Shown here one piece after another: positions 17,411 to 34,259 of a stretch of 64,000 nucleotides of DNA (positions within the stretch are counted from its first letter, which is position 1; every line of letters begins with the position of its first letter). Position numbers and translations under genes: made by a program. The notes below the pieces were generated by a model. The model was not told where the DNA came from. It saw only the letters and a program-made list of their open reading frames with translations, and did no database searches. Source of the stretch: Cnuibacter physcomitrellae (GTDB taxonomy: Bacteria > Actinomycetota > Actinomycetes > Actinomycetales > Microbacteriaceae). The DNA is taken from the NCBI RefSeq assembly GCF_014640535.1, contig NZ_BMHD01000001.1, positions 1,552,214 through 1,616,213 on the forward strand, in the 5' to 3' direction.

Positions 17411-17740
17411 GAGGTGCCAGACCTCGGTCATCCGCTCCCAGTTCGGCAGGCCCGAGCCCTCACGGAACGGGATCTGGCACGCGCTCGTCAGACGCCACCA
17501 GTCCTGCATGACCGGGTCCGCCTCCATCCGTGCCTGCGCCGCGTCGAGGTCGTCGCCCACGTAGTCGTAGGTGCCGACGATGACGTCGCCCAGGATGGAG
17601 ATGGTGAAGTCGCGGATGCCGGCTGCGGACGTCACGGCCTCCACGTGGGGCCACACCGCCGCGTGCAGCTCGAGGTACTCCGCCCGCTTCTCCGGGCGGA
17701 GCCTCGCGATCATGCCCACCCTGACCGGCCCCGTCGTCAC
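17405..17740 (-). CDS. L-rhamnose/L-fucose mutarotase (RhaM-like)
   Basis: A 111-residue RhaM/DUF718 mutarotase, which interconverts the anomers of 6-deoxy sugars. The family pattern RLRPEKRAEYLELHAAVWPHV lies near residues 14-34, with the catalytic-type His in ELHAAVWP, and WWRLTSACQIPF near the C terminus. The start is a GTG at 17740 overlapping the permease stop (GTGA), so translation is probably coupled. It is the last gene of the ABC-importer operon. Whether it prefers L-rhamnose or L-fucose cannot be read from sequence; the locus favours a 6-deoxyhexose in general. Confidence 0.85.
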   Translation of the reverse strand: MTTGPVRVGMIARLRPEKRAEYLELHAAVWPHVEAVTSAAGIRDFTISILGDVIVGTYDYVGDDLDAAQARMEADPVMQDWWRLTSACQIPFREGSGLPNWERMTEVWHLD

Positions 17741-18672: not shown

Positions 18673-19612
18673 AGAGTCCCCCTCGGAAGACGAACAGGGC
18701 GGAGAGCCCGGCGGCGACGACGAGCAGCAGCAGCGAGATGGCCGCGGACCCGTTGAAGTCGTTCTGCTTGAACGCGAACAGGTAGGCGAGCTGGTTGAGC
18801 GAGTAGTCCGGCGGCACGACCCCCTTCGAGGCCTGCGAGAGCACGCGGGGCTCGACGAAGAGCTGGGTGCCTGCGGCCAGCGCCATGACCGCCATGTACG
18901 AGATCCACTTCCGCATCAGGGGGATCTGGATGTGCCAGGCGGTCTTGATGGTGCCCGCCCCGTCGATGCGCGCCGCCTCCATCACCTCGACGGGGATGTT
19001 GTTGAGGGCGCCGTACATGATGATGATCCAGCCGCCGGCGCCGGTCCAGAACGCGATCAGCGTGAAGATCACCGGCAGGTTGTCGAGGGCCACCGTCTGG
19101 ACGAAGGTCTCCATCCCGAACAGCTGGAGGACCCACGCGACGGGGCTCACGGTCGGGTCGAGGAGGAACAGCCACAGCATCACGCTCGACGCCCCGGCGA
19201 GCGCGCCCGGGATGTAGTAGAGGAACCGGACGGCGGAGGAGGCCCATCGGACCCGGATGGCGTGGACGATGAGGGCCATCAGCACGACCAGCACGGTGAG
19301 CGAGATCAGCCAGATGAGGACGAAGACGGCCACGTGCTGGACGGCCGGCCAGAACCGGTAGTCGTCGAACACCTTCGCGAAGTTGTCGGCGCCGACGAAG
19401 GCGCCGTTCTTCGTGAAGGCGAGGTACACGGCGTAGAGGGCGGGGAAGACCCCGAAGGCGAGGAGCAGGATCGTGTAGCCCGCCGAGAAGGCGTAGCCGA
19501 TACGGGTCTGGCTGCGGTCGGGACGCTTGCGACGGCGGGCGCCCCGCCGTCGGCCCTCGGTCTCGAGAGGGCCGACGGCGGGGGCCGTCTCCTGAGCGGT
19601 GGTAGTGATGAT
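18659..19612 (-). CDS. Sugar ABC importer permease, MalF type, non-standard start
   Basis: A CUT1 permease of about 317 residues. Six helices are visible and the EAA loop is EVMEAARIDGAGTIKTAWHIQIP. Helix 1 (IGYAFSAGYTILLLAFGVFP) lies upstream of the first GTG (19429) in the same open frame. From the TAA that ends the binding-protein gene (19633-19631) down to that GTG there is no ATG, GTG or TTG in frame. The best candidates are ATC codons at 19612 and 19609, with AGGA 6 nt before the second. I place the start at 19612 so that helix 1 is kept. A rare ATC start, a 3-base change, or a sequence error are all possible. Confidence 0.8.
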   Translation of the reverse strand: MITTTAQETAPAVGPLETEGRRRGARRRKRPDRSQTRIGYAFSAGYTILLLAFGVFPALYAVYLAFTKNGAFVGADNFAKVFDDYRFWPAVQHVAVFVLIWLISLTVLVVLMALIVHAIRVRWASSAVRFLYYIPGALAGASSVMLWLFLLDPTVSPVAWVLQLFGMETFVQTVALDNLPVIFTLIAFWTGAGGWIIIMYGALNNIPVEVMEAARIDGAGTIKTAWHIQIPLMRKWISYMAVMALAAGTQLFVEPRVLSQASKGVVPPDYSLNQLAYLFAFKQNDFNGSAAISLLLLVVAAGLSALFVFRGGLFERD

Positions 19613-19630: not shown

Positions 19631-20989
19631 TTACTTGGTGTCGTAGCCCTGGACCTGGGCCTCGTTGAGGATCTCCTCCTGCCAGGCCGGCACCACGTCC
19701 GCGATCGTCTTGCCGCTGGCGAGGGCGGGGATGACGACCGAGGCGTACGCGGTCTCCGGGCTGAAGCTCGGGAAGCCCCAGCCGCCCCACACGCTGCTCG
19801 CGGCCGTCTGCACCGAGCCCTTGAAGTCGCCGGCGAAGAACCCGCTGGCGGCCTGGGTGTCGAGCCAGGTGGAGGCTGCGGAGTCGTAGGCCGGAAGTCC
19901 TGCGTTCAGCTTGGCGGCGGTGTCGGAGGAGGTGACGAACTCGAGGAAGGTCTTCACCGCGGCGAGGTTCTTGGAGTGGCTCGAGGCGTACCAGACCCCG
20001 CCGCCGACGTTGCCGGTGACCTCGTCCTCTCCGCTCCAGTACAGCGGGTCCGCGGCGCCGATCGTCCCGGCGGGGGCGTTGACGCTGTCGGGGTTCTGGA
20101 ACAGGGCTCCGGAGTACCACGCCGGGCCGGGCATCGCGACGATCTTGTCGGAGTACTTCGTCACGAAGTCCGAGCCGAAGACGCTGTCCTGCACGAGGGT
20201 GCCGTTGGCGACCATGGTGTCGAGCAGGTCGGTCATCTTCTTCGAGTGCTCGTCGTCGAAGTTCGAGGAGAACGTGTTCCCGTCGAGCTGGAAGATCGGG
20301 GCCTGCGCGCCCCAGTAGTACACATAGGGACCGACGAACGAGTCGCCCACGGTGCCGAGGATGTAGCCGGGGTGCTCGGCGGCGAGCTTCGTGCTCAGGG
20401 CCTCGTAGTCCTCCCAGGTCTTCGGGATGTCGTAGCCGAACTGGTCCAGGAGTGGCTTGTTGTACCAGAGCACGACCGGGGCGAGGTCGTTGCGGAGACC
20501 GTACACGGTGCCGTCCACGGTCATCGGGTCGAGGGCCCCGTCGGTGAACCCGTCGAGGAAGCTCTGGTCCAGGTACCCCTTGTTCAGGGCCGCGGCGAAG
20601 GCCTGGTTGCCGTTCGTCTCCTTGGCCGCCCAGGAGGCGTCGTTCGTCTGCGTCGAGAAGACGACGTCGGGCCAGCCCTCACCGGACTGGTCGAACAGCG
20701 CCATCTTGGTCTTGAACGTGTCGGAGCCGCCGGAGTTGCCGTCGTAGGTCTCGATGCTGATCGGGACGTCGGGGTTCTCCTCCTGGAACGCCTTGGCGAT
20801 CGGCTCGCGGGAGGCGTCGACCCACACCGTGATGGTGCTGCCGTCCTCCTGTTCGGCGGAGGGGAAGCCGAAGCCGCTGTCGGTGCCCGTGCTGCCACCC
20901 GAACAGGCGGAGAGGAGGCCGAGGGCAGCGAGCCCGGCTGTGATGGCGAGGGTCTTCGTGAAGCGACGACTGCGGCGCTGTGTTGCCAT
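19631..20989 (-). CDS. Sugar ABC importer binding lipoprotein
   Basis: A 452-residue extracellular solute-binding protein (family 1) anchored as a lipoprotein: basic N terminus, hydrophobic stretch and lipobox LLSAC around residue 29. It would deliver an oligosaccharide or 6-deoxy sugar to the two permeases that follow. The ATG at 20989 has AAAGGA 7-8 nt upstream. It is the first gene of an operon with both permeases and the mutarotase. A candidate GntR operator lies 67 bp upstream, so this operon is likely induced with the catabolic genes. Confidence 0.92.
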   Translation of the reverse strand: MATQRRSRRFTKTLAITAGLAALGLLSACSGGSTGTDSGFGFPSAEQEDGSTITVWVDASREPIAKAFQEENPDVPISIETYDGNSGGSDTFKTKMALFDQSGEGWPDVVFSTQTNDASWAAKETNGNQAFAAALNKGYLDQSFLDGFTDGALDPMTVDGTVYGLRNDLAPVVLWYNKPLLDQFGYDIPKTWEDYEALSTKLAAEHPGYILGTVGDSFVGPYVYYWGAQAPIFQLDGNTFSSNFDDEHSKKMTDLLDTMVANGTLVQDSVFGSDFVTKYSDKIVAMPGPAWYSGALFQNPDSVNAPAGTIGAADPLYWSGEDEVTGNVGGGVWYASSHSKNLAAVKTFLEFVTSSDTAAKLNAGLPAYDSAASTWLDTQAASGFFAGDFKGSVQTAASSVWGGWGFPSFSPETAYASVVIPALASGKTIADVVPAWQEEILNEAQVQGYDTK

Positions 20990-21081: not shown

Positions 21082-21930
21082 CTAGACCTCCGCGAGCCGA
21101 TAGACCCTCTCCGCCGTACCCCCGAGCACGAGATCGCGGTCGGCGGGATCGAGCGGCTCGAGGATCGTGCCGAGCGCGTCCCACATCCGCTCGTAGCCAC
21201 CCGCGATCCGAGCCACCGGCCAGTCGCCGCCGTACATGAGGCGGCCGGGGCCGAAGAGCTCGAGGGCATCGTCGACGAACGGGCGGAGCGAGTCCACCGT
21301 CCACGCCGCGGGGTCGCCGACGGCCGAGTAGAGGCCCGAGACCTTCGCCGACGCCCGGGGGTTCTCCGCCACGGCGGCGAGCAGCTCGCGCCACTGCGCC
21401 CGCTCCGCCTCCCCGTGACCGATCGGCGGCTTGCCGAGGTGGTCGACGACGAGGCCCAGATCCGGATGCCGCTCGCCGATCGCGACGAGCTCGGCGAGCG
21501 CGGCAGGATCCTTCGTGGGGAAGTCGAGCGTCAGCCCGGCGGCCGCGAGCATCGAGAGCGACTCGTCCTGGGCCATGCCGGCCAGCCATCCCGGCGGCAG
21601 CTCGTGCACGAGCGAGCGGATGCCCACGACGAGCGGCTCCTCGGCCAGCCGGTCGAGGGCGGCCGGGACGAGGTCGGGCCGATCCAGCGGCACCCAGCCG
21701 ACGATGCCGACCACCTCGGGATGCCGTCGGGCCACGTCGATCATCAGCTCGGTGTCCGCGGCCTCGTCCGACGCCTGGACGAGCACGGCCCCGCCGACGC
21801 CCACGGCGGAGAGGGTGGGCAGGATCTCCTCGATGGCGTGATCGCGATGGAGGATCCCCGCATCCTCGGTCAGCCAGGGGTACCGGGCGCGTCCGAGGTC
21901 CCAGACGTGCAGATGGGCGTCGATGATCAT
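21082..21930 (-). CDS. Amidohydrolase-family lactonase (L-fuconolactonase-like)
   Basis: A 282-residue TIM-barrel amidohydrolase (Amidohydro_2). The metal motif HLH lies in MIIDAHLHVWD; VDHLGKPPI and the late Asp in YGGDWPVA complete the site. Members of this group open sugar lactones such as L-fucono-1,4-lactone and L-rhamnonolactone. Its ATG overlaps the stop of the aldo/keto reductase gene by 4 bp (ATGA), so oxidation and lactone hydrolysis are translated together. Substrate is inferred from context. Confidence 0.86.
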   Translation of the reverse strand: MIIDAHLHVWDLGRARYPWLTEDAGILHRDHAIEEILPTLSAVGVGGAVLVQASDEAADTELMIDVARRHPEVVGIVGWVPLDRPDLVPAALDRLAEEPLVVGIRSLVHELPPGWLAGMAQDESLSMLAAAGLTLDFPTKDPAALAELVAIGERHPDLGLVVDHLGKPPIGHGEAERAQWRELLAAVAENPRASAKVSGLYSAVGDPAAWTVDSLRPFVDDALELFGPGRLMYGGDWPVARIAGGYERMWDALGTILEPLDPADRDLVLGGTAERVYRLAEV

Positions 21931-22889
21931 GCGATCTCCTCCAGTTCGGTCCAGAGCTCAGGGGGGATGACGGCACGGTATCGCTCGACGGTGCTCCTGA
22001 CCTGCTCGGCGGTCCGGACGCCGACGACGACCGAGGCGACGACCGGATGGCGGAGCGGGAACTGGACCGCGGCGTCCGGCAGCGTGACACCCGCCTCGCG
22101 GCACAGCTCGGCCATGCGGCGCGCACGCCGCAGGAGCTCGGGCGGCGCCTGATCGTAGTCGAACCTCGCGTCGTCCGGCACCTCCGGGCGCGACAGCAGG
22201 CCCGAGTTGTAGACCGCCGCGGCGACGATCGAGACGCCGTGCTCCTCCGCCGCGGGCAGGAGGTCCTCCTCCGCGGTCCGGTCGAGGAGCGTGAGCCGCC
22301 CCGCCACCATCACGACGTCGACGTCGCACTCGCGCACGAAGCGCGCGAGCATGGCCGACTGGTTCATCCCGGCGCCGATCGCCCGCACGACACCCTGGTC
22401 CCTGAGCTCCCGGAGCGCCGCGATGCCCGTGGTCGACGCGGCCTCCCAGTGCTGATCCGGGTCGTGGAGGTAGGCGATGTCGATGCGATCGAGCCCGAGG
22501 CGCTCGAGACTCTCCTCGACGGACCGCAGGACGCCGTCACGGCTGAAGTCCCACCGGCGCCGATGCGTGGCCGGGACGGCGAAGCCGTCGTCGTCCCGCT
22601 CCCCCGCGGCCGCGAGCTCCGGGGTCGGCACGAGCAGACGCCCCACCTTCGTCGACAGCACGTAGGTGTCGCGGTCCCGGCCGGCGAGCGCCTCACCGAG
22701 CCGGCGCTCGGAGAGCCCGATGCCGTAGTGGGGCGCGGTGTCGAAGTACCGGATCCCCGCATCCCACGCCGCGTCGACGGCGGCTCGGGCCTCCTCGTCG
22801 GTGGTCTCCCGATAGAGGCTTCCCAGCTGAGCGGCTCCGAATCCGATCTCGGTCAGCTCCACCCCGGCCGCGGTCCGTCGTGTCTGCAT
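21927..22889 (-). CDS. Aldo/keto reductase, L-fucose (D-threo-aldose) dehydrogenase-like
   Basis: A 320-residue NAD(P)-dependent aldo/keto reductase. The catalytic tetrad is visible as Asp and Tyr in RYFDTAPHYG, Lys in LSTKVGR and His in AYLHDPDQH. The sequence resembles the D-threo-aldose / L-fucose dehydrogenase branch, which oxidises the sugar to its lactone, and the next gene is a lactonase. The ATG at 22889 is preferred to a GTG at 22895, because GAGGAGG ends 7 nt before the ATG but only 1 nt before the GTG. A candidate GntR operator is 39 bp upstream. Confidence 0.87.
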   Translation of the reverse strand: MQTRRTAAGVELTEIGFGAAQLGSLYRETTDEEARAAVDAAWDAGIRYFDTAPHYGIGLSERRLGEALAGRDRDTYVLSTKVGRLLVPTPELAAAGERDDDGFAVPATHRRRWDFSRDGVLRSVEESLERLGLDRIDIAYLHDPDQHWEAASTTGIAALRELRDQGVVRAIGAGMNQSAMLARFVRECDVDVVMVAGRLTLLDRTAEEDLLPAAEEHGVSIVAAAVYNSGLLSRPEVPDDARFDYDQAPPELLRRARRMAELCREAGVTLPDAAVQFPLRHPVVASVVVGVRTAEQVRSTVERYRAVIPPELWTELEEIA

Positions 22890-22927
22890 CGTCACGCCTC
22901 CTCGTCGAGTGTCTGGATGCGCCAGAC

Positions 22928-22965: not shown

Positions 22966-24474
22966 CTAGCGGGTGGGGAGCACGAGCACTCCGTCGACGC
23001 GGCGCGGGATCGACAGGTCGTCGTCGCGCAGCTCCGCCGGCAGCACCGCGGCGGGCGCGTTCTGCCAGGCGACGGGGCGCAGCCACCGGCGGATCGCCGT
23101 CACGCCCACGGACGTGTGCTGGGTGTTCGTGGCCGGCCACGGACCTCCGTGGTGCTGCGCCCACGACACGCGGACCCCGGTCGGGTACCCGTTGAAGACG
23201 AGCCGACCCGCGAACGGCTGGAGCGAGGCCGCGAGGTCGGCCACCAGCTCCTCCTCGTCGGGCTCGGAGTGCACCGTCGCGGTCAGCGAGCGCGGTACGC
23301 GTCCGATCGCCTCGACGACCTGGTCGATCGAGTCGTACCTCACGGCGACGATCATCGGCCCGAAGCACTCCTCGGCGAGCTCCGCCGAGAGCTCGGTCGC
23401 CGTGGTCTCGAGCATGGTCGGCGGCACGGTGTACCCCTCCCCCTCGGCCTCCCGCCCGCGGGCGAGCGCTCGCGCCCCCGCCTCGACGAGACGGCCCTCG
23501 ATCGCGTCGAACGACCCGCGGATGCGCGAGTTGAGGAGGACCCCGGCCCCGGCGTCGTCGGTGAGGGACGCGAGCGCGGAGACGAGCCCGTCGCCCGCTG
23601 CCCCCGTCGGCACGAAGGCCAGCCCGGGCTTGGTGCACAGCTGCCCCGCCGATCCGGTGTACGAGGCGAACAGCCCCTCGGCGATGGCGGCCGAGCGCGC
23701 CGCGGCCGCGCCGGCGGTGACGACGAGCGGGTTGATGCTCGACAGCTCCCCGAAGAACGGGATCGGCTCGGGCCGGGTGGCGATCGCGGCCTGGAGGGCC
23801 TCGGCCGCGCCGAGGGACCCGGTGAAGCCCACCGCCGTGATGTTCGGGTCCGTCACGAGCCGGGTCCCGGCCTCCTGCCCGTACACGATGCCGATCGTCC
23901 CCTCGGGCGCACCGACCGAGCGAGCGGCCGCGAGGAGGGTCTCGTACGACAGGGCCGAGGTGAGCGGATGCGAGCCGTGCGCCTTGGCGACCACGGGGCA
24001 TCCGGCGGCCAGCGCCGAGGCGACGTCGCCGCCGAGGACGGAGAAGGCGAAGGGGAAGTTGCTCGACCCGAAGACCGCGACGGGGCCGGTCGGCACGAGC
24101 ATGCGGCGCACGTCGGGCTGCGGCCCGAGAGGCGTCTCCCCGGCGTGGTCGATGGCGGCCTCGAGGTACGACCCCTCCCGGATGGCGGACGCGAACAGCG
24201 AGAGCTGGAACGCACTGCGACTGAGCTCCCCGTTCAGGCGCGCGGCGGTCAGCCCGGTCTCGGACTCCGCCGTGGAGACGAGCTGCTCGCGGCTGCCCTC
24301 GAGGGCGACGGCCATCGCGTCGAGCATCTCGGCGCGGAACTCGCGCCCGAGCGAGGCGAGGTCGCGGGCCGCCGAGGCGGCCAGCGCGGCGATCGCGGCG
24401 ACCTCCTCCGGGGAGGTCTTCTCGAGATCGGTGGCAGCGCTGACACCGGTGCGGGGGTCTGTCGTGGTGATCAT
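22966..24474 (-). CDS. Aldehyde dehydrogenase, 2,5-dioxovalerate type
   Basis: A 502-residue NAD(P)-dependent aldehyde dehydrogenase of the branch that oxidises alpha-ketoglutaric semialdehyde (2,5-dioxovalerate) in oxidative sugar-acid pathways. Catalytic Cys280 lies in GQLCTKPG, the general base Glu243 in FFGELSS and Asn139 in GSSNFPFAFS. GFTGS at 216-220 is the cofactor loop. It is last in the minus-strand run that begins with the CoA-transferase, 32 bp after the LacI gene. Other aldehydes (lactaldehyde, for example) remain possible. Confidence 0.88.
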   Translation of the reverse strand: MITTTDPRTGVSAATDLEKTSPEEVAAIAALAASAARDLASLGREFRAEMLDAMAVALEGSREQLVSTAESETGLTAARLNGELSRSAFQLSLFASAIREGSYLEAAIDHAGETPLGPQPDVRRMLVPTGPVAVFGSSNFPFAFSVLGGDVASALAAGCPVVAKAHGSHPLTSALSYETLLAAARSVGAPEGTIGIVYGQEAGTRLVTDPNITAVGFTGSLGAAEALQAAIATRPEPIPFFGELSSINPLVVTAGAAAARSAAIAEGLFASYTGSAGQLCTKPGLAFVPTGAAGDGLVSALASLTDDAGAGVLLNSRIRGSFDAIEGRLVEAGARALARGREAEGEGYTVPPTMLETTATELSAELAEECFGPMIVAVRYDSIDQVVEAIGRVPRSLTATVHSEPDEEELVADLAASLQPFAGRLVFNGYPTGVRVSWAQHHGGPWPATNTQHTSVGVTAIRRWLRPVAWQNAPAAVLPAELRDDDLSIPRRVDGVLVLPTR

Positions 24475-24506: not shown

Positions 24507-25601
24507 TCAGGCGCTCTCGCGGGCGACGACGGCGAAGCCGAGGTCGACGCGGCGGACGTCGTCGGAGCGATGGGTCATGCGCTGCAGCAGCAGCTCGCCG
24601 GCCACCGTGCCGATCTCGCGGTTGGGCGCCGAGACGGTGGTCAGCGTGGGCGCGAGGTAGCGGGCGAGCTCGAAGTCGCCGAACCCGGTGATGGCGAGGT
24701 CGCCGGGCACCGAGATGCCCTGCCTGCCCGCCTCGAGGATGGCGCCGGCGGCGAAGACGTCGCTGGCGAACATGAGGACGTCGGTCTCGGGATGCAGGGA
24801 TCGCGCCTGGTGCAGCAGCGCCTTGCCCGTCTCCAGGTCGACCCGGGCGGTGCCGGAGTCGACGACGCGGATGGCCTCGCCGGGGAACAGCTCGGCGACC
24901 GTCTCCTCGAACGCCGCGCGGCGCTTGGCCGCGCGGAAGTCGCCGGTCTGCAGCGACCCGGCGAAGGTGGGGTGCCGGTACCCGCGGCCGTGCGCGTACT
25001 CGACGATGGCGCGGATGGCGTCGTGGTTGGAGAAGCCGACGAGGGAGTCGATCGGGGCGTCCGTCATCTCCCAGGTCTCGACGACCGGCACCTTCGACTC
25101 GCGGAGGAGGTGCGTGGTCCGCTCCGTGTGGGTGGTGCCCACGATGAAGAAGCCGTCGGGACGGCGGCCGAGGAACGAACGGACGAGGTCCTCCTCGTGC
25201 GAGGGCCGGTAGCCGGTCGATCCGAGGAAGAGCTGGTACCCGGCCGGGCCGAGCACCTCCTCCAGCCCGTGCAGAGCATCCGCGAACACCGAGGCACTGA
25301 CGTCGGGCACGAGCACGGCGACGGTCATGCTCCGGTTGGAGGCGAGGTTCGAGGCGGCGAGGTTCGGCACGTAGCCGGTGGCCGCGATCGAGGAGCGCAC
25401 CCGCTCCAGGGTGAACTCGGACACCAGCTCGGGCGCTCGGATGGAGCGGGACACGGTCTGCGGCGAGACCCCGGCGTGCACGGCGACGTCGTTGAGCGTC
25501 ACCGTCTGCGTCGACCGCCGGGTGAGCCTCGGCCCTGCCGCGGCGGCCTCGAGGTCGGCGGCGGGGTCGAGGTCGGCGACGACCTCGAGCCCCGGGGTCA
25601 C
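24507..25601 (-). CDS. LacI-family regulator
   Basis: A transcription factor of about 364 residues. The LacI headpiece starts at VTLNDVAVHAGVSPQTVSRS, followed by the hinge NLAASNLASNRS and a periplasmic-binding-protein-like sugar domain. A GTG at 25601 overlaps the stop of the FAH gene (GTGA), giving a 35-residue tail before the headpiece. The alternative GTG at VTLNDV would give the usual LacI length. Likely operators are the AGCGCT-centred palindromes at 34328-34341 and 30095-30108, the latter on the promoter of its own probable operon. Confidence 0.9.
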   Translation of the reverse strand: MTPGLEVVADLDPAADLEAAAAGPRLTRRSTQTVTLNDVAVHAGVSPQTVSRSIRAPELVSEFTLERVRSSIAATGYVPNLAASNLASNRSMTVAVLVPDVSASVFADALHGLEEVLGPAGYQLFLGSTGYRPSHEEDLVRSFLGRRPDGFFIVGTTHTERTTHLLRESKVPVVETWEMTDAPIDSLVGFSNHDAIRAIVEYAHGRGYRHPTFAGSLQTGDFRAAKRRAAFEETVAELFPGEAIRVVDSGTARVDLETGKALLHQARSLHPETDVLMFASDVFAAGAILEAGRQGISVPGDLAITGFGDFELARYLAPTLTTVSAPNREIGTVAGELLLQRMTHRSDDVRRVDLGFAVVARESA

Positions 25602-26782
25602 AGCAGGTTCCGGCCCGCCAGGTTGCGCATCAGCGAGCCGATCCCGAACACCCATGGTTCGCACCTCTCGCTCTGCTCCACGTGGTTGACCAGACTACCC
25701 AGTTCGGGTGCCGAGATCGCGACCACGTCGCCGCGCTTGTGGGTGAAGCCGCGGTCGGGCTCGTCGCGGTCGACGATGGGCGCGAACATGGTGCCGAGCA
25801 TCAGCGCGGCACCATCCGGGTACTGATGCGACGGGCCCACGAGCTGGGCGGCGAGGTCCTCGGGATCGCGGCTGATCTGCCGCATCTCGCTGGTGCCGTG
25901 CAGCTCGAAGCCGTCCTCGCCGACGAGGTCGAGCGACACCGTGAGACCGCGGACGGTGTCGAGGTCGAAGGTCTCGTCGAAGAGCCGGATGAACGGGCCG
26001 ATCGAGCAGGAGGCGTTGTTGTCCTTGGCCTTGGGCAGGAGGAGGGCGGATCGTCCCTCCACGTCGCGGAGGTTCACGTCGTTGCCGAGCGTGGCCCCCA
26101 CGATCCGGCCGGTCGACGTCAGCGCCAGCACCACCTCGGGCTCGGGGTTGTTCCACTGCGACTTCGACCAGACCCCGACCGCGACGCCGGTGCCCATCGT
26201 CGACAGCGTCGGGCCCTTGGTGAAGATCTCGGCGTCCGGCCCGATCCCGACCTCGAGGTACTGGCTCCAGATCCCCTTCTCGACGAGGAACGCCTTGAGC
26301 GCGGTCGCCTCGTCCGACCCGGGCACGATCGCGCTCAGGTCGGCGCCGATCTCCGCGAGGATCTCCTCTCGCATCGCAGCCGCCGCATCCGGGTCGCCCT
26401 TCACCCGCTCCTCGATCACGCGCTCGATCATCGAGACGGCGAAGGTGACTCCCGCCGCCTTGACGGTCTGCAGGTCCAGGGGCGACAGGAGCCGTACCCG
26501 GGTCACGTCGCCGGCGACGGTCGCGGCGAGCGCGTCCTCGAGCGTGCCGAGGTTCGGCGCCCCCTCCCCCAGGGCGGCGCGCGCGGCGGCGACCGGGTCG
26601 TCGCTCTCCAACAGGTCGCTCACGGTCGCGAAGGAGCCGGACAGGTCGTACAGGCCGTCCTCCCGCACCAGCACGGGGGAGGGGCCCTCGACCGCCGGGT
26701 CCCAGACCCGTCCGACGAGGGTGCCCGCGTAGCGGTCGGCGGGGAGGGTGGTCGCGACGTCGGCGGTGATCGTCGTGGTCAT
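25598..26782 (-). CDS. Fumarylacetoacetate-hydrolase-family enzyme
   Basis: A 394-residue FAH-superfamily protein, larger than typical members by an N-terminal domain. The metal site is in WNNPEPEVVL, and GNDVNLRD and the late LMLGTMFAP match the family. Relatives dehydrate 2-keto-3-deoxy-arabinonates or hydrolyse 2,4-diketo-3-deoxy-fuconate. Next to a 2,5-dioxovalerate-type aldehyde dehydrogenase and sugar-acid enzymes, either role is reasonable; I cannot choose. The ATG at 26782 has AGGAG 8 nt upstream. The gene overlaps the LacI start by 4 bp. Confidence 0.82.
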   Translation of the reverse strand: MTTTITADVATTLPADRYAGTLVGRVWDPAVEGPSPVLVREDGLYDLSGSFATVSDLLESDDPVAAARAALGEGAPNLGTLEDALAATVAGDVTRVRLLSPLDLQTVKAAGVTFAVSMIERVIEERVKGDPDAAAAMREEILAEIGADLSAIVPGSDEATALKAFLVEKGIWSQYLEVGIGPDAEIFTKGPTLSTMGTGVAVGVWSKSQWNNPEPEVVLALTSTGRIVGATLGNDVNLRDVEGRSALLLPKAKDNNASCSIGPFIRLFDETFDLDTVRGLTVSLDLVGEDGFELHGTSEMRQISRDPEDLAAQLVGPSHQYPDGAALMLGTMFAPIVDRDEPDRGFTHKRGDVVAISAPELGSLVNHVEQSERCEPWVFGIGSLMRNLAGRNLL

Positions 26783-26867
26783 GCGGAGGGCTCCTGTCGG
26801 GGCGGATGCGGTCGGGCGGGCGTGGGTAGGGGTGCGCGCGGGTCAGCGGTGCGGGGTGGGTCGCGGG

Positions 26868-27659
26868 TCAGCGGCGCCTGAAGACGGCGTCTCGCTTCTC
26901 GGCGAAGGCGCGCCGCCCCTCGGCGGCGTCCTCCGTGGCGAACGTGATGGTCTGGAGGTCGCGCTCGTAGCGGATGGCCTCGTCCTGCGTCATCGTGAAG
27001 GCGGCGCGGAGGTTGGCCTTCGCGGTCTCGGCGGCGATCGGCGGCCGGGTCGCGATCGTGGCCGCGAGCTCGCGTGCCCGCGGCAGCAGCGCATCCGGCT
27101 CGACGACCTCGGAGACGAGGTTCCAGGCCAGCGCCTGCTGCGCGGTGATCGGATCGCCGGTCATGATCATCACGGCGGCGTTCGACGGGCCGATCGAGTG
27201 GGCCAGGAACGTGCTCATGCCACCGCCGCCGATCCAGCCGAGCTTGATCTCGGGTGCCGCGAACGAGGCCGTCGACGACGCGAGGCGGATGTCGCAGGTC
27301 ATCGCCGTCTCGAGTCCGCCGCCGAACGCGTAGCCGTTCACCGCGGCGATCAGCGGCTTCCGCAGGAGCCGCAAGGCGTCGCAGTAGTCCTCGCGGTTCC
27401 GGAACTCCCAGGGCGTGCGGTACTTGTCGAGCGAGCGGATGTCGCTGCCCGCGCAGAAGGCGCGCTCCCCCGCTCCGGTCAGCACGACCGCCCGGACCTC
27501 GTCCTCGTCGTTCGCCCAGGTCGCGGCGACGACGAGCGCATCCGACATCTCCTGGGTGACCGAGTTCAGCTTCGCGGGCCGGTTGATCGTGATCGTCGCG
27601 ACATGTCCGTCGAGCTCCAGCAGGATCTCGTCGGTGCCCAGGTCGGGTGTGCTCACCAC
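26868..27659 (-). CDS. Enoyl-CoA hydratase/isomerase family protein
   Basis: A 263-residue crotonase-fold enzyme. The oxyanion-hole segments are AFCAGSDI and NGYAFGGGLETAM; the Glu in PEIKLGWIGGGG is placed as a catalytic acid. It acts on an acyl-CoA, which fits the class III CoA-transferase two genes upstream. Starts at a GTG pair (27659/27656) overlapping the stop of the binding-protein-like gene, so translation is coupled. Reaction (hydration, hydrolysis or isomerisation) cannot be set from sequence. Confidence 0.87.
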   Translation of the reverse strand: MVSTPDLGTDEILLELDGHVATITINRPAKLNSVTQEMSDALVVAATWANDEDEVRAVVLTGAGERAFCAGSDIRSLDKYRTPWEFRNREDYCDALRLLRKPLIAAVNGYAFGGGLETAMTCDIRLASSTASFAAPEIKLGWIGGGGMSTFLAHSIGPSNAAVMIMTGDPITAQQALAWNLVSEVVEPDALLPRARELAATIATRPPIAAETAKANLRAAFTMTQDEAIRYERDLQTITFATEDAAEGRRAFAEKRDAVFRRR

Positions 27660-28792
27660 TGTTCCGTCACTTTCTGCGGGTGTTGGGCCGCCACACCCAC
27701 CGGAAGTGACGGATCAGGGGATGCGGCGCGGAGCGCCGCGAGCGCGGAGGGGATCGTGAGCTCGCCGGACAGGGCGTCGCGGATGATCGCGGACGCGTCG
27801 GCCTGGAACCGGATGTATCCGGAGTAGCGGGGGCGCACCCAGGAGTCCTCGATGGTGGCGAGCGTCGAGCGGTAGAAGCCGTGCGCGGCGCCGTTCACGG
27901 CGTCGTCGAGCCAGGCGGTCCGGGTGCTGGGCTGGCCGGCGTGCGCGGGGATGAACCCGACCTGCGCCTCGGACGACATCAGCCACTCGATGTGGTGCAC
28001 GAGCTCGGGGGTGACCTCGCACCGCCGACTCAGCGCGAGCCCGGTGCCGCCGATCGTCGAGCCCAGGCGACCGCCGGCGACGGCGGCCGGGGCGTCCGCG
28101 AAGCGCACGGTCGGCGACGAGTAGTTCACGTACCCGTAGACCAGGGGCACGTAGGCGATGTCGGCGGTGTCGGTCATCCGCTCGAGCAGCGCGATCGGGT
28201 TCTGCGTCTCGGCGTCGCGCGGAGCGCGGGCGGCGATCGACCGCATCCGATCGAGCACCTCGGTGCCCACCACGTCGTCGTCGAAGGCGGATCCGAAGGC
28301 GACGCACATCGACGCGAAGGTGAGGAAGGCGTGCGGGCCGGCGAGCGAGAGGACGACCGGGACGGAGCGGGACAGCGCCTCCACCTCGTCCCACGTGCCG
28401 GGCTCGGCGGGGCACAGGTCCGCGCGGCGGACCGACACCTGCGTGGCGGCGTCCAGCGGCAGCGCCCACTGACGCCCCGCCACCTCGTACGAGGCGAAGG
28501 ACGGCCCGACCGCCTCCCCGGCCCAGCGCTCGAGCTGCGCCGCGGACACGACGTCGTCGATCGGACGGAGGGACCCGAGCTCGAGCGCCTCGCCGAGATG
28601 CGGATGGTCGAGGACGATCAGGTCGTAGCGCTCCGCGAGGTCGTCGATCGGATGCGACTCGAAGTGCTCGAGGGAGTGGGCGTCCCACACGATGTCGAGG
28701 CCCGAACCCGCCGAGCGCTCGCGCGCGGCGGCGGCTCGCAGCGCATCCCTCCCGCGAGGGTGGTCCCAGGTGATGCCGCGATAGGACGTCAT
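27653..28792 (-). CDS. Solute-binding-protein-like protein without export signal
   Basis: A 379-residue protein with the fold pattern of family 1 extracellular binding proteins (LPLDAATQVSVRRAD, IEWLMSSEAQVGFIPAHAGQPS) but no signal peptide and no lipobox. It starts directly with MTSYRGITWDHPRGRDAL. It should therefore be cytosolic, and it is not next to any permease. It overlaps the CoA-transferase stop by 4 bp and the enoyl-CoA hydratase start, so the three are a tight unit. It may sense or hold a ligand of this pathway. Its last 15-20 codons run through an imperfect palindrome (27664-27712), so the native C terminus may be shorter in relatives. Confidence 0.75.
   Translation of the reverse strand: MTSYRGITWDHPRGRDALRAAAARERSAGSGLDIVWDAHSLEHFESHPIDDLAERYDLIVLDHPHLGEALELGSLRPIDDVVSAAQLERWAGEAVGPSFASYEVAGRQWALPLDAATQVSVRRADLCPAEPGTWDEVEALSRSVPVVLSLAGPHAFLTFASMCVAFGSAFDDDVVGTEVLDRMRSIAARAPRDAETQNPIALLERMTDTADIAYVPLVYGYVNYSSPTVRFADAPAAVAGGRLGSTIGGTGLALSRRCEVTPELVHHIEWLMSSEAQVGFIPAHAGQPSTRTAWLDDAVNGAAHGFYRSTLATIEDSWVRPRYSGYIRFQADASAIIRDALSGELTIPSALAALRAASPDPSLPVGVAAQHPQKVTEQW
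27664..27712. repeat. Imperfect palindrome across a gene end
   Basis: Arms 27664-27683 and 27693-27712 (20 bp, three mismatches), starting CCGTCACTT. It is read as the C-terminal codons of the binding-protein-like gene and ends 4 bp from its stop. It resembles the intergenic palindromes in size and in the TTCCGTCA / CGCCAC words. Confidence 0.65.
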
Positions 28793-30066
28793 GCCGACTC
28801 CGCGACGGGCACCTCGGGGGCCGGTGCGGCCGCCGAGCCGGGCCCGGGCTCGGCCACGACGACGCCGGACTCCACGAGGGCGTCGACCGTCCGCGGGTCC
28901 ACGCCCAGCTCGGCGAGGATCTCCCGGGTGTGCTCGCCCGTCACGGGGGCGCCGCGGTCGATGCGCGCCGGGGTCTCCGAGAGGCGGTAGGGGAAGCCCG
29001 GGGTCTTGATGCGGCCCTCGGTCGGGTGGTCGTACTCGATGAAGGTGCCGTTGTGCTCGATCTGCGGATCGTTGACGAGCGCCTCGTAGTCGTAGACCGG
29101 CCCGGCCCAGATGCCGGCCTCGGCGAGCGCCTCCAGCCAGTGCGCCGTCGACTCCGTGGCCAGCCGGGCGGCGGTGCGCTCGTAGATCTCGTCGCGGTAC
29201 CGCCAGCTGTCGGTCTCCGTGTCCATGTCGAGGAAGGTGTCCTCCCCGATCACGCGACCGAGCGTGGAGAGCTCGGGCATCGCCAGCGCGACGAACCCGT
29301 CGGTCGTGGCGAAGGCCCCGTAGGGGGCGCGGATGTAGACGTGGGCGTGCGGCTGAGCGCCACGACGCTGCTCGACACCGCCGACGGTGTAGACCGACAG
29401 CTCCTGCATCTGCAGGGTGGTGATGGCATCCAGCATGTTGACCGTGACCAGCTGGCCCTGCCCCGTCCGCTCACGGTGGAAGAGCGCGGCGAGCACGCCC
29501 TCGAACGCCGTGGAGGCGGTCACCGCGTCGACGAGGTACTGCCCGGCCGGCTGCGGCGGTGCGCCGTGCGAGCCCGCGGAGAGCATGGCGCCGCTCATCG
29601 CCTGGAGGAGGAGATCCTGCCCCGGACGGTTGCGGTAGGGCCCGTCCTCGCCGTAGCCGGAGATGGAGACGTAGACCAGGCTCGGGTTGATCGCGCGGAG
29701 CGTGTCGTAGTCGACGCCGAGCCGGGCCGCGACGCCCGGCCGGTAGTTCTGGAGGAAGACGTCGGCCGTCGCGACCAGGTCGTAGAGGATGCCCCTGCCC
29801 TCGTCGGACTTGAGGTCGACCGCGATCGAGCGCTTGTTGCGGTTGAGCGAGAGGAACGAGACGTTGATCCGGTTGCCGCTCGCCCCGCCCGCCGCGGCGT
29901 GCCGCTGCCACTCCCCCGTGGGCGGCTCGACCTTGATGACGTCGGCTCCGAGGTCGCCCAGGCGCTGCGCCGCGAACGGCCCCGCCATGGCGATCGAGCA
30001 GTCAAGCACACGCACGCCGGAGAGCACCTCGGGGGGTCCTGCGACTTGTCCGTCGGTCATGTCCAT
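28789..30066 (-). CDS. CaiB/BaiF class III CoA-transferase
   Basis: A 425-residue family III CoA-transferase that moves CoA between carboxylic acids in the cytoplasm. VLDCSIAMAGPFAAQRLGDLGADVIKVE at the N terminus is typical (seen at 20-47), and the catalytic Asp is residue 151 in PGQDLLLQAMSG. The last 25 residues are an Ala/Pro-rich tail. Two ATG starts (30066 and 30060) are possible; GAGG sits 6 nt before the second and AGGA 5 nt before the first. It is the first gene of a run with the binding-protein-like, enoyl-CoA hydratase, FAH, LacI and aldehyde dehydrogenase genes. Confidence 0.9.
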   Translation of the reverse strand: MDMTDGQVAGPPEVLSGVRVLDCSIAMAGPFAAQRLGDLGADVIKVEPPTGEWQRHAAAGGASGNRINVSFLSLNRNKRSIAVDLKSDEGRGILYDLVATADVFLQNYRPGVAARLGVDYDTLRAINPSLVYVSISGYGEDGPYRNRPGQDLLLQAMSGAMLSAGSHGAPPQPAGQYLVDAVTASTAFEGVLAALFHRERTGQGQLVTVNMLDAITTLQMQELSVYTVGGVEQRRGAQPHAHVYIRAPYGAFATTDGFVALAMPELSTLGRVIGEDTFLDMDTETDSWRYRDEIYERTAARLATESTAHWLEALAEAGIWAGPVYDYEALVNDPQIEHNGTFIEYDHPTEGRIKTPGFPYRLSETPARIDRGAPVTGEHTREILAELGVDPRTVDALVESGVVVAEPGPGSAAAPAPEVPVAESA

Positions 30067-30160: not shown

Positions 30161-31285
30161 TCAGTCGGGCTGTCCGCCGAGGGCGCGGATGCGCTCCCGC
30201 GCGCCGTCCGTCTCGGCCTGGCCGACGAGGACGCGGATCGTGGTCCGGTACTCCCGCGACTGTCCGTGCTCGAGCCAGATCATCGACCCGTCCTCGCGCG
30301 CAGCCCCGTCGCCGCCGACGTGGTGGGTGGAGGGTTCGAGGCCGACCGCATACTGGCCGCTCCGCAGGTTCTGCCACTCGAAGAAGCTCGGCATGCCGGC
30401 CGGGTCCCACGAGACCTCGACGCCGAGGGCGCCGTCGGCGCGCAGCAGCGCGACACGGTGCAGTCCGTCGGGCCCGACGACGAGCTCGTGCTCGGTCACC
30501 TGCTCGACCATGTTCAGCACGGGTGCGGGCAGCGTCCGGTACGAGATGCCCTGCTCGGCGACCGAGTCCGACTGCCAGAGATGCCGGGAGATCGCGGCGA
30601 CGAACTCCGTGCCCTCGTCGACGATCGGCCAGCCGACGTTGATGTGGTACAGGAACATGTGAGGCGTGGGCTCGAAGCCGAGGTTGTCGACCACGTCGTG
30701 CAGACGGATCTCGCGGCCGTCCACATCCACCTCGATCGTGCGCGTGAGCCTCAGGTGCTCGCCGAACGAGGTCGCCTGGATCACCTCGCCCACCAGGCGG
30801 AGCACGCTCGGCCCGCTCTCGGGATCGACGACCTCTCGGGCCTCGAGCAGTCGCGCGGGGATGGCGGTGAGCCGACCGTGGAGCCCGTGCGACACGGTCT
30901 GCTTCGGCGGATACGCGTACCGGGTCGCGTCGACCTCGCCGCCGAAGAGCGTGTGGTCGAGTCCGCCCGAGACGAGCAGGCCGTCGAGGGCCCGCAACCA
31001 GGAGAGCCCGCCCTCATCCGTGTGCTCGTGGAGCCCCGGATGACGGAACCCGTTGCCGGAGCGCCAGCCCACCGGGATGCCGGTGATGCGGGCGGAGCCG
31101 AGGTCGAACGCGCGGTCGACGAGCACCTCGAGCTCGAGGCCCGCCGAGGTGCGGAGGTCGATGGCGCGCACGCCCCGCTCCACCCCGTCGTCGAGCACCA
31201 CGTGACGGATGCCCGCCACGGCCGAGAGGTCGCCGGTGCGCTCGGCGAGCTGCCGGCGCGTGAGGTCGTGTCCGAAGACGTCCAT
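30161..31285 (-). CDS. DUF4432 galactose-mutarotase-like protein
   Basis: A 374-residue protein of the aldose-1-epimerase-like DUF4432 family. HGLHGRLTAIPA, PHMFLYHINVGWP and FFEWQNLRSGQYAVGLEPSTHH are visible family stretches with candidate catalytic His and Glu. It probably acts on a sugar or sugar acid in the cytoplasm, possibly interconverting anomers. It lies 10 bp after the SDR gene and is probably the last gene of the run that starts with the Gfo/Idh/MocA gene. Confidence 0.82.
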   Translation of the reverse strand: MDVFGHDLTRRQLAERTGDLSAVAGIRHVVLDDGVERGVRAIDLRTSAGLELEVLVDRAFDLGSARITGIPVGWRSGNGFRHPGLHEHTDEGGLSWLRALDGLLVSGGLDHTLFGGEVDATRYAYPPKQTVSHGLHGRLTAIPARLLEAREVVDPESGPSVLRLVGEVIQATSFGEHLRLTRTIEVDVDGREIRLHDVVDNLGFEPTPHMFLYHINVGWPIVDEGTEFVAAISRHLWQSDSVAEQGISYRTLPAPVLNMVEQVTEHELVVGPDGLHRVALLRADGALGVEVSWDPAGMPSFFEWQNLRSGQYAVGLEPSTHHVGGDGAAREDGSMIWLEHGQSREYRTTIRVLVGQAETDGARERIRALGGQPD

Positions 31286-31295: not shown

Positions 31296-32039
31296 CTACT
31301 CCATGATCCAGCCGCCGTCGACGTTGATCGTCTGCCCCGTCACGAAGGCCGAGTCCGGCCCGACGAGGAACGAGACGACCGCCGCCAGCTCGGCGTTGGT
31401 GCCGCGGCGCTTCAGCGACTGACGGGTGAGCACGAACTCGGTGTACTCGGCGCTGTCGCCCTGGATCTCCTCGGCCTTCGTCGGGAAGGCTCCCGGCGAG
31501 ACCGCGTTGACCCGGACGCCGTACTCGCCGAGCTCCCGGGCGAGCGCCCGGGTCAGGCCGACCGCGGCGCCCTTGGTCGACACGTAGCTGGCGAGGTTCG
31601 ACCATCCGCCGTGGAACGTGATCGACCCCACGTTCACGATCGCCCCGCTCCGCCGTTCGACCATGGGCCGGGCGGCGACCTGGGCGGCGTAGAAGTACGC
31701 CCGCTGGTTGACGGTGACGACGTCCTCGTACTCCGCGAGCGGGATGTCCAGGAACGGGGTGGACGGGTAGATCGCCGCGTTGTTCACAAGCGCCTCGACC
31801 GGCCCGAAGTCCCGATCGGTCGTGGTGATCGCCGCCTCGATCGCCTCGGCGTCACGCAGGTCGACCTCGAGGGTGCGCACCGGCACCCCCGCCTCGTCCA
31901 GCAGTCGCGCCGACTCGTCGAGCTCCTCGCTCGCACGGCCGAGCACGGCGACGGCGAAGCCGTCCTGCCCGAGCCGCAGCGCGGTGGCGCGCCCGAGGGC
32001 GCCGCCTGCTCCCGTGATGATCGCCACGCGATCGTTCAT
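31296..32039 (-). CDS. Short-chain dehydrogenase/reductase
   Basis: A 247-residue classical SDR. TGAGGALG at about 9-16 binds NAD(P), NNAAIYPS stabilises the fold, and the catalytic Ser (VGSITFHG) and YVSTK complete the site. GGWIME is the normal C terminus. Substrate is probably a hydroxyl of a sugar or sugar acid; if the L-fucose-type route operates, this could be the 2-keto-3-deoxy-L-fuconate dehydrogenase step. The ATG at 32039 is the family start; codons upstream run into a palindrome. Confidence 0.9.
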   Translation of the reverse strand: MNDRVAIITGAGGALGRATALRLGQDGFAVAVLGRASEELDESARLLDEAGVPVRTLEVDLRDAEAIEAAITTTDRDFGPVEALVNNAAIYPSTPFLDIPLAEYEDVVTVNQRAYFYAAQVAARPMVERRSGAIVNVGSITFHGGWSNLASYVSTKGAAVGLTRALARELGEYGVRVNAVSPGAFPTKAEEIQGDSAEYTEFVLTRQSLKRRGTNAELAAVVSFLVGPDSAFVTGQTINVDGGWIME

Positions 32040-32076
32040 CCTGTGTCCCGTTCCTCTTCTGTGGTCCATCGTGTCG

Positions 32077-32136
32077 GGCTTTGTCCAGGTTTCCGTCGCC
32101 ATCCGGCGGATTGGCGACGGAAACCTGGACAAAGCC
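32077..32136. repeat. Perfect 25-bp intergenic palindrome (family B)
   Basis: Arms 32077-32101 and 32112-32136 are exact reverse complements around a 10-base spacer. The core TTTGTCCAGGTTTCCGTCGC is identical to that of the palindrome at 40275-40340. It lies after the sugar-isomerase stop and before the SDR gene, so it may end or weaken read-through between the two. Confidence 0.92.
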
Positions 32137-32176: not shown

Positions 32177-33091
32177 TCAGATCGTGTAGCGCTTGAGCAC
32201 CTCGGTCACGAACGCCTTCGCGCGCGGGATGTCGGCCTCGTCGAGGTGCTCGATGATGAGCGGCGCGTTCGGGTTCTGCTCCGACAGGCGCTGGAGGTAG
32301 AGGTCGTAGTCGAGCGAGCCGAGGCCGGCGGCCGGCAGCTCGATCTCTCCGACGCCGCGGAAGGTGTGCGAGGCGAGCGCGTCGTCGTCGCCGATGTCCG
32401 CGTGCTTCTCGCTCTTGTCCGAGCCGGCGCGCTTGACGTCCTTGGCGTGGGCGACGCGGACGCGATCGCCGAGGGTGTCGAACACCTCGTTGAGGACGCC
32501 CGCCTGGTCGTCGATGTTGTCCTGGTCGAAGTAGTTCGTCGGGTCCATGAGCAGCTCGAGACCGGGGGTGCGGATGTCGTTGAAGACGCGCACGGTCTCG
32601 CGCACCGACCCGATCACGTTGTTCACGTACGTCTCGAGGAGGAACGTGGCGCCGTGGTCGTAGGCCTCCTGCGCCAGCTCGGCGAGCACGTCGCGGACCT
32701 GCTCGTAGGCGTCCTCGGTGCGGTTGTGGGGGTCGTGGTCCCACTCGCTCTCGGGGTTGAACGTGCCCGACTCGGAGATGACGTACTTCGATCCGAAGTT
32801 GCGGGCGTTGCGGATGATCTCCTTCAGGTACTCGACGTTCTGGCGACGGTGCTCGGCGTCGGGGTGGACGATGTTCGTGTACCCGGAGATGGCGCTGATC
32901 GGCAGGTCGTGGTCGCGAAAGGTGTCGGAGACCTTCTTGGCCTTCTCCTTCGTGATCTGGCCGGCCGAGAGGTCCATGTCCTTGAAGTGAAGGTCGAGCT
33001 GCACGGTGTTGAAGCCGTGCGCGCGGATCCTCTGCGCGGTGGTCTCGAGGTCGTACGGGTAGTAGGCGGTGAAGATGCCCAGCTGGATCAT
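32177..33091 (-). CDS. Sugar phosphate isomerase/epimerase (AP_endonuc_2 TIM barrel)
   Basis: A 304-residue xylose-isomerase-like TIM-barrel protein. Metal-ligand candidates are Glu in FLLETYVNN, Asp in LLMDPTNYF, His in VRVAHAKDV and Glu in LIIEHLDE, as in this family. It likely isomerises or epimerises a keto-sugar. The ATG at 33091 fits the family start (MIQLGIFTAYYPYDLE) with AAGGAG 10 nt upstream. It is paired with a Gfo/Idh/MocA dehydrogenase, a common combination in polyol and inositol-like catabolism. Confidence 0.86.
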   Translation of the reverse strand: MIQLGIFTAYYPYDLETTAQRIRAHGFNTVQLDLHFKDMDLSAGQITKEKAKKVSDTFRDHDLPISAISGYTNIVHPDAEHRRQNVEYLKEIIRNARNFGSKYVISESGTFNPESEWDHDPHNRTEDAYEQVRDVLAELAQEAYDHGATFLLETYVNNVIGSVRETVRVFNDIRTPGLELLMDPTNYFDQDNIDDQAGVLNEVFDTLGDRVRVAHAKDVKRAGSDKSEKHADIGDDDALASHTFRGVGEIELPAAGLGSLDYDLYLQRLSEQNPNAPLIIEHLDEADIPRAKAFVTEVLKRYTI

Positions 33092-33164: not shown

Positions 33165-34259
33165 TCAGAGCGTGAACTCCAACAGCTGGACAGGGCGCTT
33201 CTCCGCGATCGAGCGGTATCCCGCCTCGATGAGCGCCATGGTCTTGACGTTGTCGGCGACCGAGAGCTCGGGCTCGGTGTCCGTCTCGACCGCGTTCTGC
33301 ACCTGCTCCATGACGCCGATGAAGGCATGCGGGAACCAGTGCGTGTCCCAGGTCGGCGTCACCCATCGGCCGTCGGTGGTGATCGCCGAGGCGTAGGTGA
33401 GGGTGGAGGGCTGCCCGGTGGGCCACCCGATCGTGCCCTTCGCGACTCCCCGCGTGCCCTCCACACGCCAGGTGATGGAGAGGTCGGAGTCGAAGCCCTC
33501 CTCGCGCGGGCCGCTCCAGACGTCCTCGAGCGACAGGGCGAGCACGTTGCCCGGGAAGCGGAGCGTCGAGACGACGATGCCGTCCTCGTGCTCGAACGCG
33601 GTGCGCGGATCCTCGCGGACGACCGTGGAGATCTCGGTGGGGTCGCCGAAGAGGTAGCGGAGCGCATCCAGATGGTGGACGCTCATGTTCGCCAGCGTGA
33701 GCCGGTCGTAGCCCTCGAGGAACGTCTGCCAGTGCGGGATGGCCCGCATGTCGATCGAGGCGAAGACGACGTCGCCGAGCTCGCCCCGGTCGAGGATCTG
33801 CTTGAGCACGCGGATCGACTGGTCGTAGCGCATGTTCTGGTTGACAGAGAGGATCTTCCCGGCCGCGGCCGCCTCGTCGCGGAGGGCGACGGCCTCGTCG
33901 AGGTCGAGCGCGAGGGGCTTCTGAGCGAGGATCGCGCGGATGTGCGGCTTCGTCAGCGCCTCGCGGATGATCGCGGGCTGCTGGTCGGGCGGGAACGCGA
34001 TGTCGACGATCTCGACCCGCTCGTCGTCGAGCAGCTCGCTGGGCGTGGAGTGGACGGTGCCGATGCCCCAGCGGTCGGCGACCTGCTGCGCCGTGGCGGG
34101 GGTCCGGGAGGCGATCGCGACGACGGGGAAGCCCGCCTCGGCGTAGGCGGCGAGGTGGTTGTCGGCCATGATCATGCCCGCGCCGATGCAGCCGATGGCG
34201 TGGGCGCGGCTCCGGATCTCGACGTCCGGGGCGAACTCGGACGGGGTCGTCGTGACCAT
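33165..34259 (-). CDS. Gfo/Idh/MocA-family oxidoreductase
   Basis: A 364-residue NAD(P)-dependent sugar or inositol dehydrogenase. The Rossmann motif is GCIGAGMIMADNHL, the family Lys is in ILAQKPLALDLDEA, and NMSVHHLDALRYLFGDP carries the catalytic-type His. The ATG at 34259 has AGAGGAA 7 nt upstream. It is first of a minus-strand run (isomerase, SDR and epimerase follow) and lies divergent from the ribose-type ABC importer with two AGCGCT-centred operators between them, so both sides are probably under LacI control. Confidence 0.9.
   Translation of the reverse strand: MVTTTPSEFAPDVEIRSRAHAIGCIGAGMIMADNHLAAYAEAGFPVVAIASRTPATAQQVADRWGIGTVHSTPSELLDDERVEIVDIAFPPDQQPAIIREALTKPHIRAILAQKPLALDLDEAVALRDEAAAAGKILSVNQNMRYDQSIRVLKQILDRGELGDVVFASIDMRAIPHWQTFLEGYDRLTLANMSVHHLDALRYLFGDPTEISTVVREDPRTAFEHEDGIVVSTLRFPGNVLALSLEDVWSGPREEGFDSDLSITWRVEGTRGVAKGTIGWPTGQPSTLTYASAITTDGRWVTPTWDTHWFPHAFIGVMEQVQNAVETDTEPELSVADNVKTMALIEAGYRSIAEKRPVQLLEFTL

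Follow-up and report, generated by a model that had tools for sequence, protein, structure and literature searches.

In the cai operon of Escherichia coli, the family III CoA-transferase CaiB and the crotonase CaiD form a carnitine dehydratase system that works on a 3-hydroxy acid bound to CoA; as set out in parts of PMC2131755, CaiD depends on CaiB for the cycling of CoA from product to substrate. In route II of Herbaspirillum huttiense, a Weimberg-type pathway treated in part of PMC6336799, a 2-keto-3-deoxypentonate (KDP) dehydratase of the FAH family leads to ketoglutarate semialdehyde; the D-arabinonate dehydratase clustered with it is of the UxaA/GarD type, both enzymes were assayed, and pentonate dehydratases elsewhere are of the IlvD/EDD or enolase type. 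The D-KDP dehydratases covered in part of PMC7374468 also belong to the FAH family, and the sugar-acid dehydratases dealt with in portions of PMC9795676 and PMC6336799 use metals, namely Mg2+ or iron, the latter in iron-sulphur or other sites. Here we analyze a 64,000-nucleotide stretch of Cnuibacter physcomitrellae DNA (contig NZ_BMHD01000001.1, positions 1,552,214 to 1,616,213; the window), in which three overlapping genes encode a family III CoA-transferase (CoAT), a protein with the fold of a solute-binding protein (SBP) that has no export signal (SBPc), and a crotonase.

All three genes are on the minus strand, with an overlap of 4 nucleotides between CoAT and SBPc and of 7 nucleotides between SBPc and the crotonase, and the open reading frames, Pfam matches and fold agree with the trio reported in the first-pass annotation of this DNA. 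We slightly favour the interpretation that they form a CoA-dependent module for sugar-acid dehydration, in which CoA would cycle as in CaiB/CaiD and SBPc would be the sugar-acid-binding partner of CoAT. The basis is the linkage of the genes, a leaderless SBPc with an SBP fold, conserved catalytic residues, the lack of a UxaA/GarD gene and the presence of only one IlvD/EDD gene in the genome. As in the cai operon, a CoA-transferase and a hydratase share one locus (57 of the 58 SBPc loci compared below); the differences are the predicted sugar-acid substrate, the additional SBP-fold protein, the ability of a MaoC-type hydratase to replace the crotonase, and the fact that no CoA ligase was recognised in the window locus. 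SBPc shares its fold, and probably a sugar-like ligand, with the carbohydrate-binding proteins of ATP-binding cassette (ABC) transporters (TMBP 1eu8, LpqY, SmoF), but it has neither a signal peptide nor a permease partner, and its fixed partner is a CoA-transferase. Each component is of a known kind; we know of no earlier case of their combination or of the reaction proposed. The first-pass annotation had suggested an undescribed pathway; in agreement, neither a CoA-dependent sugar-acid dehydration nor a cytosolic SBP with a CoA-transferase was found in a full-text literature search, although most subscription papers lie outside its coverage and the result is not proof. The term "CoA" does not occur in the review PMC9795676.

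In order to evaluate the conservation of the trio, 58 SBPc loci were compared by profiles. They span Actinomycetota, Alpha- and Betaproteobacteria and Bacteroidota and include 14 of the 145 plasmid records with SBPc; as the loci are related to one another, the counts are not independent events. Kept apart from the 58 were L129 (the same locus as L009), the SBPc-less clade L124-L127, and L140, L141, L142, L143 and L147, the last five of which all hold CoAT and SBPc. SBPc relatives were detected at seven loci of the genome collection, in 22 of 396 genomes of the order, and in 145 of 72,556 plasmid records, mainly of Sinorhizobium but also of Azospirillum, Roseibium, Streptomyces, Rufibacter and Persicobacter; no match was found among phage records at 1e-5. 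A phylum-wide profile search returned 13 of 396 genomes at E <= 1e-10, with three matches at 1e-128 or better and the remaining ones between 1e-10 and 1e-13, in open frames of ordinary SBP length, so that a gap separates the two groups.

CoAT is present in all 58 loci, adjacent to SBPc and on the same strand in 56, usually with a 4-nucleotide overlap. CoAT comes first in 52 of these adjacent pairs and SBPc in four, and because of this reversed order the pairing is seen to survive rearrangement. A hydratase accompanies the pair in all loci but one (crotonase only, 36; MaoC only, 20; both, 1), within 500 bp in 50 of 58, and MaoC takes the place of the crotonase in about a third. For comparison, the 11 ECH and MaoC matches in the window's own genome of 4.35 Mb correspond to about 5% per 20 kb, and a chance neighbourhood is ruled out by the co-conservation. 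Conversely, a search starting from CoAT retrieved 27 of 299 genomes of the family at E <= 1e-90. Twenty-three of them, the window's included, carry a CoAT of at least 61% identity, with SBPc next door in 22 and in the same cluster in the 23rd; in the other four (41-47% identity), SBPc is about 10 kb away in one and absent from the genome in three. SBPc also stays beside CoAT at loci with a distant hydratase or none (L071, L072, L075, L076, L079). The closest unit within the trio is CoAT plus SBPc. The distance correlation between the two proteins is 0.90 over 54 loci (without L052, L073, L074 and L123).

The residues that we take to be catalytic are retained: the CoAT aspartate in 58/58 loci, the crotonase glutamate pair in 36/37 (the 37th being a gap), and the MaoC aspartate and histidine in 21/21. 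Because crotonase and MaoC, which have unrelated folds, occupy one slot, the function of that slot is best explained as the addition of water to, or its removal from, a CoA thioester. The CoAT of the window falls below every NCBIfam equivalog cut-off for the named family III types (formyl, succinate-glutarate, carnitine, mesaconate; best 243 of 750 bits), and its closest relatives in the tree (built without 14 rows, most of them near-duplicates) are those of Herbiconiux, in keeping with a Microbacteriaceae genome.

The trio is followed, as already noted in the first-pass annotation, by genes for an FAH-family protein, a LacI-type regulator and an aldehyde dehydrogenase (ALDH) of the 2,5-dioxovalerate type, the last just outside the range given there, and the sugar-acid catabolism proposed as its setting is supported by the neighbours. 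The FAH protein matches 9kkt (2.9e-125) and KdaD 2q18 (4e-20), and a Variovorax FAH 60% identical to it has an altronate dehydratase gene on one side and an ALDH gene on the other. For the ALDH, the NCBIfam 2,5-dioxovalerate dehydrogenase match (6e-23) is weak and below cut-off, and the PDB matches 1eyy and 3v4c are also weak. With an FAH of the KDP dehydratase type and a probably fitting ALDH, the locus reads, at the sequence level, as a Weimberg-type route from which a known pentonate dehydratase appears to be missing. UxaA/GarD had no match in the window's own genome, and its single IlvD/EDD gene looks like a housekeeping gene, located beside an ilvB-like open reading frame (labelled from its first residues only). 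Since the Variovorax and Herbaspirillum settings show a dehydratase clustered with FAH where the window shows CoAT-SBPc-crotonase, the trio appears to stand in the place of the dehydratase gene, which in H. huttiense is of the UxaA/GarD type (PMC6336799, in part).

The substrate, the CoA cycling, the ligand of SBPc, its contact with CoAT and each of the following reactions are predictions. Oxidation and opening of the sugar would yield the aldonate. CoAT would place CoA on this sugar acid, which is most likely a pentonate in the window, to give an aldonyl-CoA, from which the crotonase would take water across C2-C3 (the C3 hydroxyl and the C2 proton). The resulting enol would tautomerise to the 2-keto-3-deoxyacyl-CoA, and CoAT would hand CoA to the next sugar acid, releasing 2-keto-3-deoxypentonate, so that CoA only cycles. 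Conversion to 2-oxoglutarate would then follow through the FAH protein, as KDP dehydratase, and the ALDH. SBPc is predicted to be a cytosolic sugar-acid binder that serves CoAT either as a partner subunit or by delivering its substrate. Its persistence beside CoAT where the hydratase is distant or lacking, and the alignment of invariant residues such as D62 with the presumed sugar cleft of its relatives, point to binding of the aldonate on behalf of CoAT as its most likely role; this role is nevertheless the least certain part of the proposal.

A bolder version, which we regard as possible but rather doubtful, is that an SBP fold was turned into a cytosolic CoAT subunit closing around a polyhydroxy acid and passing the carboxylate to the transferase, which would make the trio a metal-free, three-protein sugar-acid dehydratase. 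Crotonases act on (3S)- and MaoC-type R-hydratases on (3R)-hydroxyacyl-CoA, and D-xylonate is 3S, whereas D-arabinonate and L-fuconate are 3R. Such a dehydratase might exist in two stereochemical lines, with the crotonase for (3S)-aldonates such as D-xylonate and MaoC for (3R)-aldonates such as L-fuconate and D-arabinonate, the latter line being found beside GH95 genes.

By the proposed dehydration, the CoA chemistry of the trio gains a likely place, namely the apparently missing sugar-acid dehydration step, and the missing step of actinobacterial pentose oxidation becomes directly testable. If the proposal is true, soil and plant-associated bacteria of three phyla would possess a chemically distinct route by way of CoA thioesters, and many genes labelled "extracellular solute-binding protein", although their products are intracellular, would gain a function. 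To our knowledge, it would also be the first time that a carbohydrate SBP is seen to cooperate with an enzyme of metabolism.

Several observations weigh against the dehydration module. FAH is present in only 2/21 MaoC loci (one of the 21 having both hydratases), and for this reason the MaoC variant must mostly feed another route. The genomes G193, G831 and G845 contain a related CoAT and a hydratase but SBPc was not found in them, which indicates that SBPc is not a general requirement of such chemistry; the sister CoAT clade lacks it. In the Sinorhizobium meliloti plasmid pSymB, the CoAT-SBPc pair has no hydratase nearby, the sole such exception among the 58. Grouping of the SBPc-linked CoATs as one clade was rejected (p-AU 0.006, with a warning of long branches). 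Coevolution of SBPc and CoAT could not serve as proof of contact either: over 30 loci (without L003, L052, L130 and all loci lacking ECH or FAH), their distance correlation of 0.84 is hardly above the 0.81 of SBPc and FAH, that of ECH and FAH being 0.88, so the signal is not specific. Moreover, seven further matches to the enolase superfamily (MR_MLE) in the window's own genome could supply a dehydratase, and the crotonase could work in the hydration direction.

The scarcity of FAH at MaoC loci is also consistent with a CoA module that acts on another acid, for example a product of the branch formed by the short-chain dehydrogenase (SDR), the Gfo/Idh/MocA dehydrogenase (GFO) and the isomerase, in a step resembling beta-oxidation, with FAH and ALDH as mere neighbours. 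GFO, sugar phosphate isomerase/epimerase-type (SPI), DUF4432 and SDR genes do travel with one form of the crotonase loci. Nevertheless, FAH is found in 33/37 crotonase loci, and the annotated neighbours include no acyl-CoA dehydrogenase and no thiolase save one on the other strand in L077; we therefore consider such an acid unlikely, though still worth weighing.

It is improbable, in our estimate, that KDP is made by the MR_MLE protein of the locus or by another dehydratase elsewhere and that the CoA trio does something else. A related MR_MLE gene is part of the operon in group 1b loci, the KxK motif is kept in the alignment, and the further matches in the genome add candidates. However, the aspartate and histidine of what we take to be the dehydratase dyad are replaced in 12/12 sequences (the window protein and 11 relatives), and L003-L009, L067, L068 and L078 carry the trio without a related MR_MLE gene in the operon.

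Across 25 diverse sequences, SBPc has 35 invariant columns, including H11, R13, D62, H63, D114 and Y221, and some of these residues, such as D62, align with positions of sugar SBPs that presumably form the ligand cleft. Such strong cross-phylum conservation for an SBP would suit a protein that has lost transport and gained a catalytic step of its own, with the sugar acid or the corresponding lactone or CoA ester as substrate; thiaminase I and THI5 are SBP-fold proteins turned enzymes. On the other hand, a conserved ligand would yield the same pattern and the best relatives of SBPc are transport SBPs, and an enzymatic SBPc seems to us fairly unlikely. The dedicated ligand carrier or sensor of the first-pass annotation stays one option for SBPc, but only one of several. 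As a sensor or allosteric activator, SBPc would switch on CoAT, or a regulator, with the sugar acid and without delivering substrate. Its pairing with CoAT and its absence in a related CoAT clade would fit, and CaiE of the carnitine operon, suggested as an activator of CaiD/CaiB in part of PMC2131755, is a possible precedent. CoAT is constant, but the regulator adjoining the pair differs between loci (LacI, IclR or GntR), and we give such a switch a low probability.

SBPc scores below the Pfam cut-offs (SBP_bac_8, 25.6 bits against 27; SBP_bac_1, 19.4 bits against 26), and the profile of the 25 sequences matches the sugar-binding proteins 1eu8 (6.6e-20) and LpqY (6e-18) in the PDB. An AlphaFold model, built from an eight-row alignment (window plus L003-L009), is of middling confidence (mean pLDDT 68, pTM 0.68) and was used for the fold only; it resembles the carbohydrate-binding proteins of ABC transporters (Foldseek E 1e-14; VIA Z 20.2, rmsd 7.0 over 317 residues). 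The start of SBPc lies about 7 residues ahead of a TWxHxRG motif in most loci. Among the 55 of 57 loci with enough open frame upstream of this motif for scoring (L052, with a split SBPc, was left out), none has a hydrophobic segment there; the maximum 15-residue hydrophobicity average is at most 1.19, against 2.01 in the lipoprotein SBP of the window. Because no hydrophobic stretch precedes the motif and, in 7/57 loci, the first in-frame upstream stop lies within 20 codons and leaves no room for a signal, SBPc is very probably cytosolic, as the first-pass annotation had assumed; homologues with signal peptides beside permeases were not encountered. That SBPc is an ordinary transport SBP, with an unrecognisable signal or a mis-annotated start, as its fold and the database label "carbohydrate ABC transporter substrate-binding protein" might suggest, is highly improbable and was rejected on the missing signal, the coupling to CoAT and not to permeases, and the separate lipoprotein SBP of the locus.

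Table 1. Genes of the window at and around the CoAT-SBPc-crotonase locus, with the evidence for each assignment
Feature	Position	Strand	Evidence
Family III CoA-transferase (CoAT)	28789..30066	-	Pfam CoA_transf_3 2e-111, model 1-366 of 366
SBPc, leaderless, carbohydrate-binding-protein fold	27653..28792	-	Fold and sub-threshold Pfam
Crotonase (enoyl-CoA hydratase fold), both catalytic Glu	26868..27659	-	Pfam ECH_1 1e-61
FAH-family protein, KDP dehydratase type	25598..26782	-	Glu kept 34/34
LacI-family regulator, start codon uncertain	24507..25664	-	Pfam LacI and Peripla_BP_3
ALDH, ketoglutarate-semialdehyde/2,5-dioxovalerate type	22966..24474	-	Pfam Aldedh; PDB 1eyy, 3v4c
Aldo/keto reductase, candidate aldose 1-dehydrogenase	21927..22895	-	Pfam Aldo_ket_red 4e-55
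Amidohydrolase, L-fuconolactonase-like	21082..21930	-	NCBIfam FuconLaconase 2.6e-50, below cut-off
Lipoprotein ABC sugar-binding protein, transport SBP of the locus	19631..20989	-	Lipoprotein-type N-terminus in translation
Two ABC permeases	17737..19429	-	Open reading frames and conserved neighbourhood
L-rhamnose-mutarotase-like protein	17405..17740	-	Annotation of relatives; profile matches
DUF4432 (aldose 1-epimerase-like)	30161..31285	-	Pfam DUF4432 9e-82; relatives annotated aldose 1-epimerase family
SDR, candidate sugar dehydrogenase	31296..32090	-	Pfam adh_short_C2 8e-53
SPI	32177..33091	-	Conserved; annotation of relatives
GFO	33165..34259	-	Conserved; annotation of relatives
MR_MLE protein without dehydratase His/Asp dyad	15353..16564	+	Alignment with relatives
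GntR/FCD regulator	16619..17398	+	Cluster representative Pfam FCD and GntR

Neighbouring genes give hints on the substrates, namely pentoses (FAH/ALDH), L-fucose-type sugars (GH95, lactonase, mutarotase-like protein) and pectin-like material (GH88 in L124 and L126). The MaoC loci of family f14 adjoin GH95 genes, a family that includes alpha-L-fucosidases, and on account of these neighbours they fit L-fuconate. At about 10700-14400 of L058, GH95 and CoAT apparently form one open frame of ~1213 codons, a possible fusion seen in one genome. In L126, a related CoAT and a crotonase are found beside an SDR, a metallo-beta-lactamase-fold (MBL) protein that is a possible lactonase, a KDG kinase and a KDPG aldolase, and the genes annotated there include no other dehydratase. 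The SBPc-less CoAT-crotonase-MBL clusters with GH88 in L124 and L126 (G193 and G831) may represent a related module for another sugar acid.

Additional arrangements of these genes were observed. Two CoAT genes are located next to SBPc in L071 and L072 (Bacteroidota) and in the actinobacterial L055, perhaps for a heteromeric transferase. The lone CoAT-SBPc pair of S. meliloti pSymB (L142, 10829-13116; L075, 7829-10116) lies downstream of traA; one strain has an IS21 element next to it. In a Streptomyces plasmid (L147, 5694-15143) and in a genome of the window's family (L123), SBPc-FAH is found with CoAT-MFS transporter-MaoC-ALDH, SBPc being near CoAT but not adjoining it. On a Jannaschia plasmid (L073), SBPc and CoAT are on opposite strands and ~4.5 kb apart, separated by TRAP transporter and crotonase genes. 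Finally, the window's own genome contains a second CoAT-crotonase pair, without SBPc and in a different setting (L136, 8499-10609; C1:2214579-2216533).

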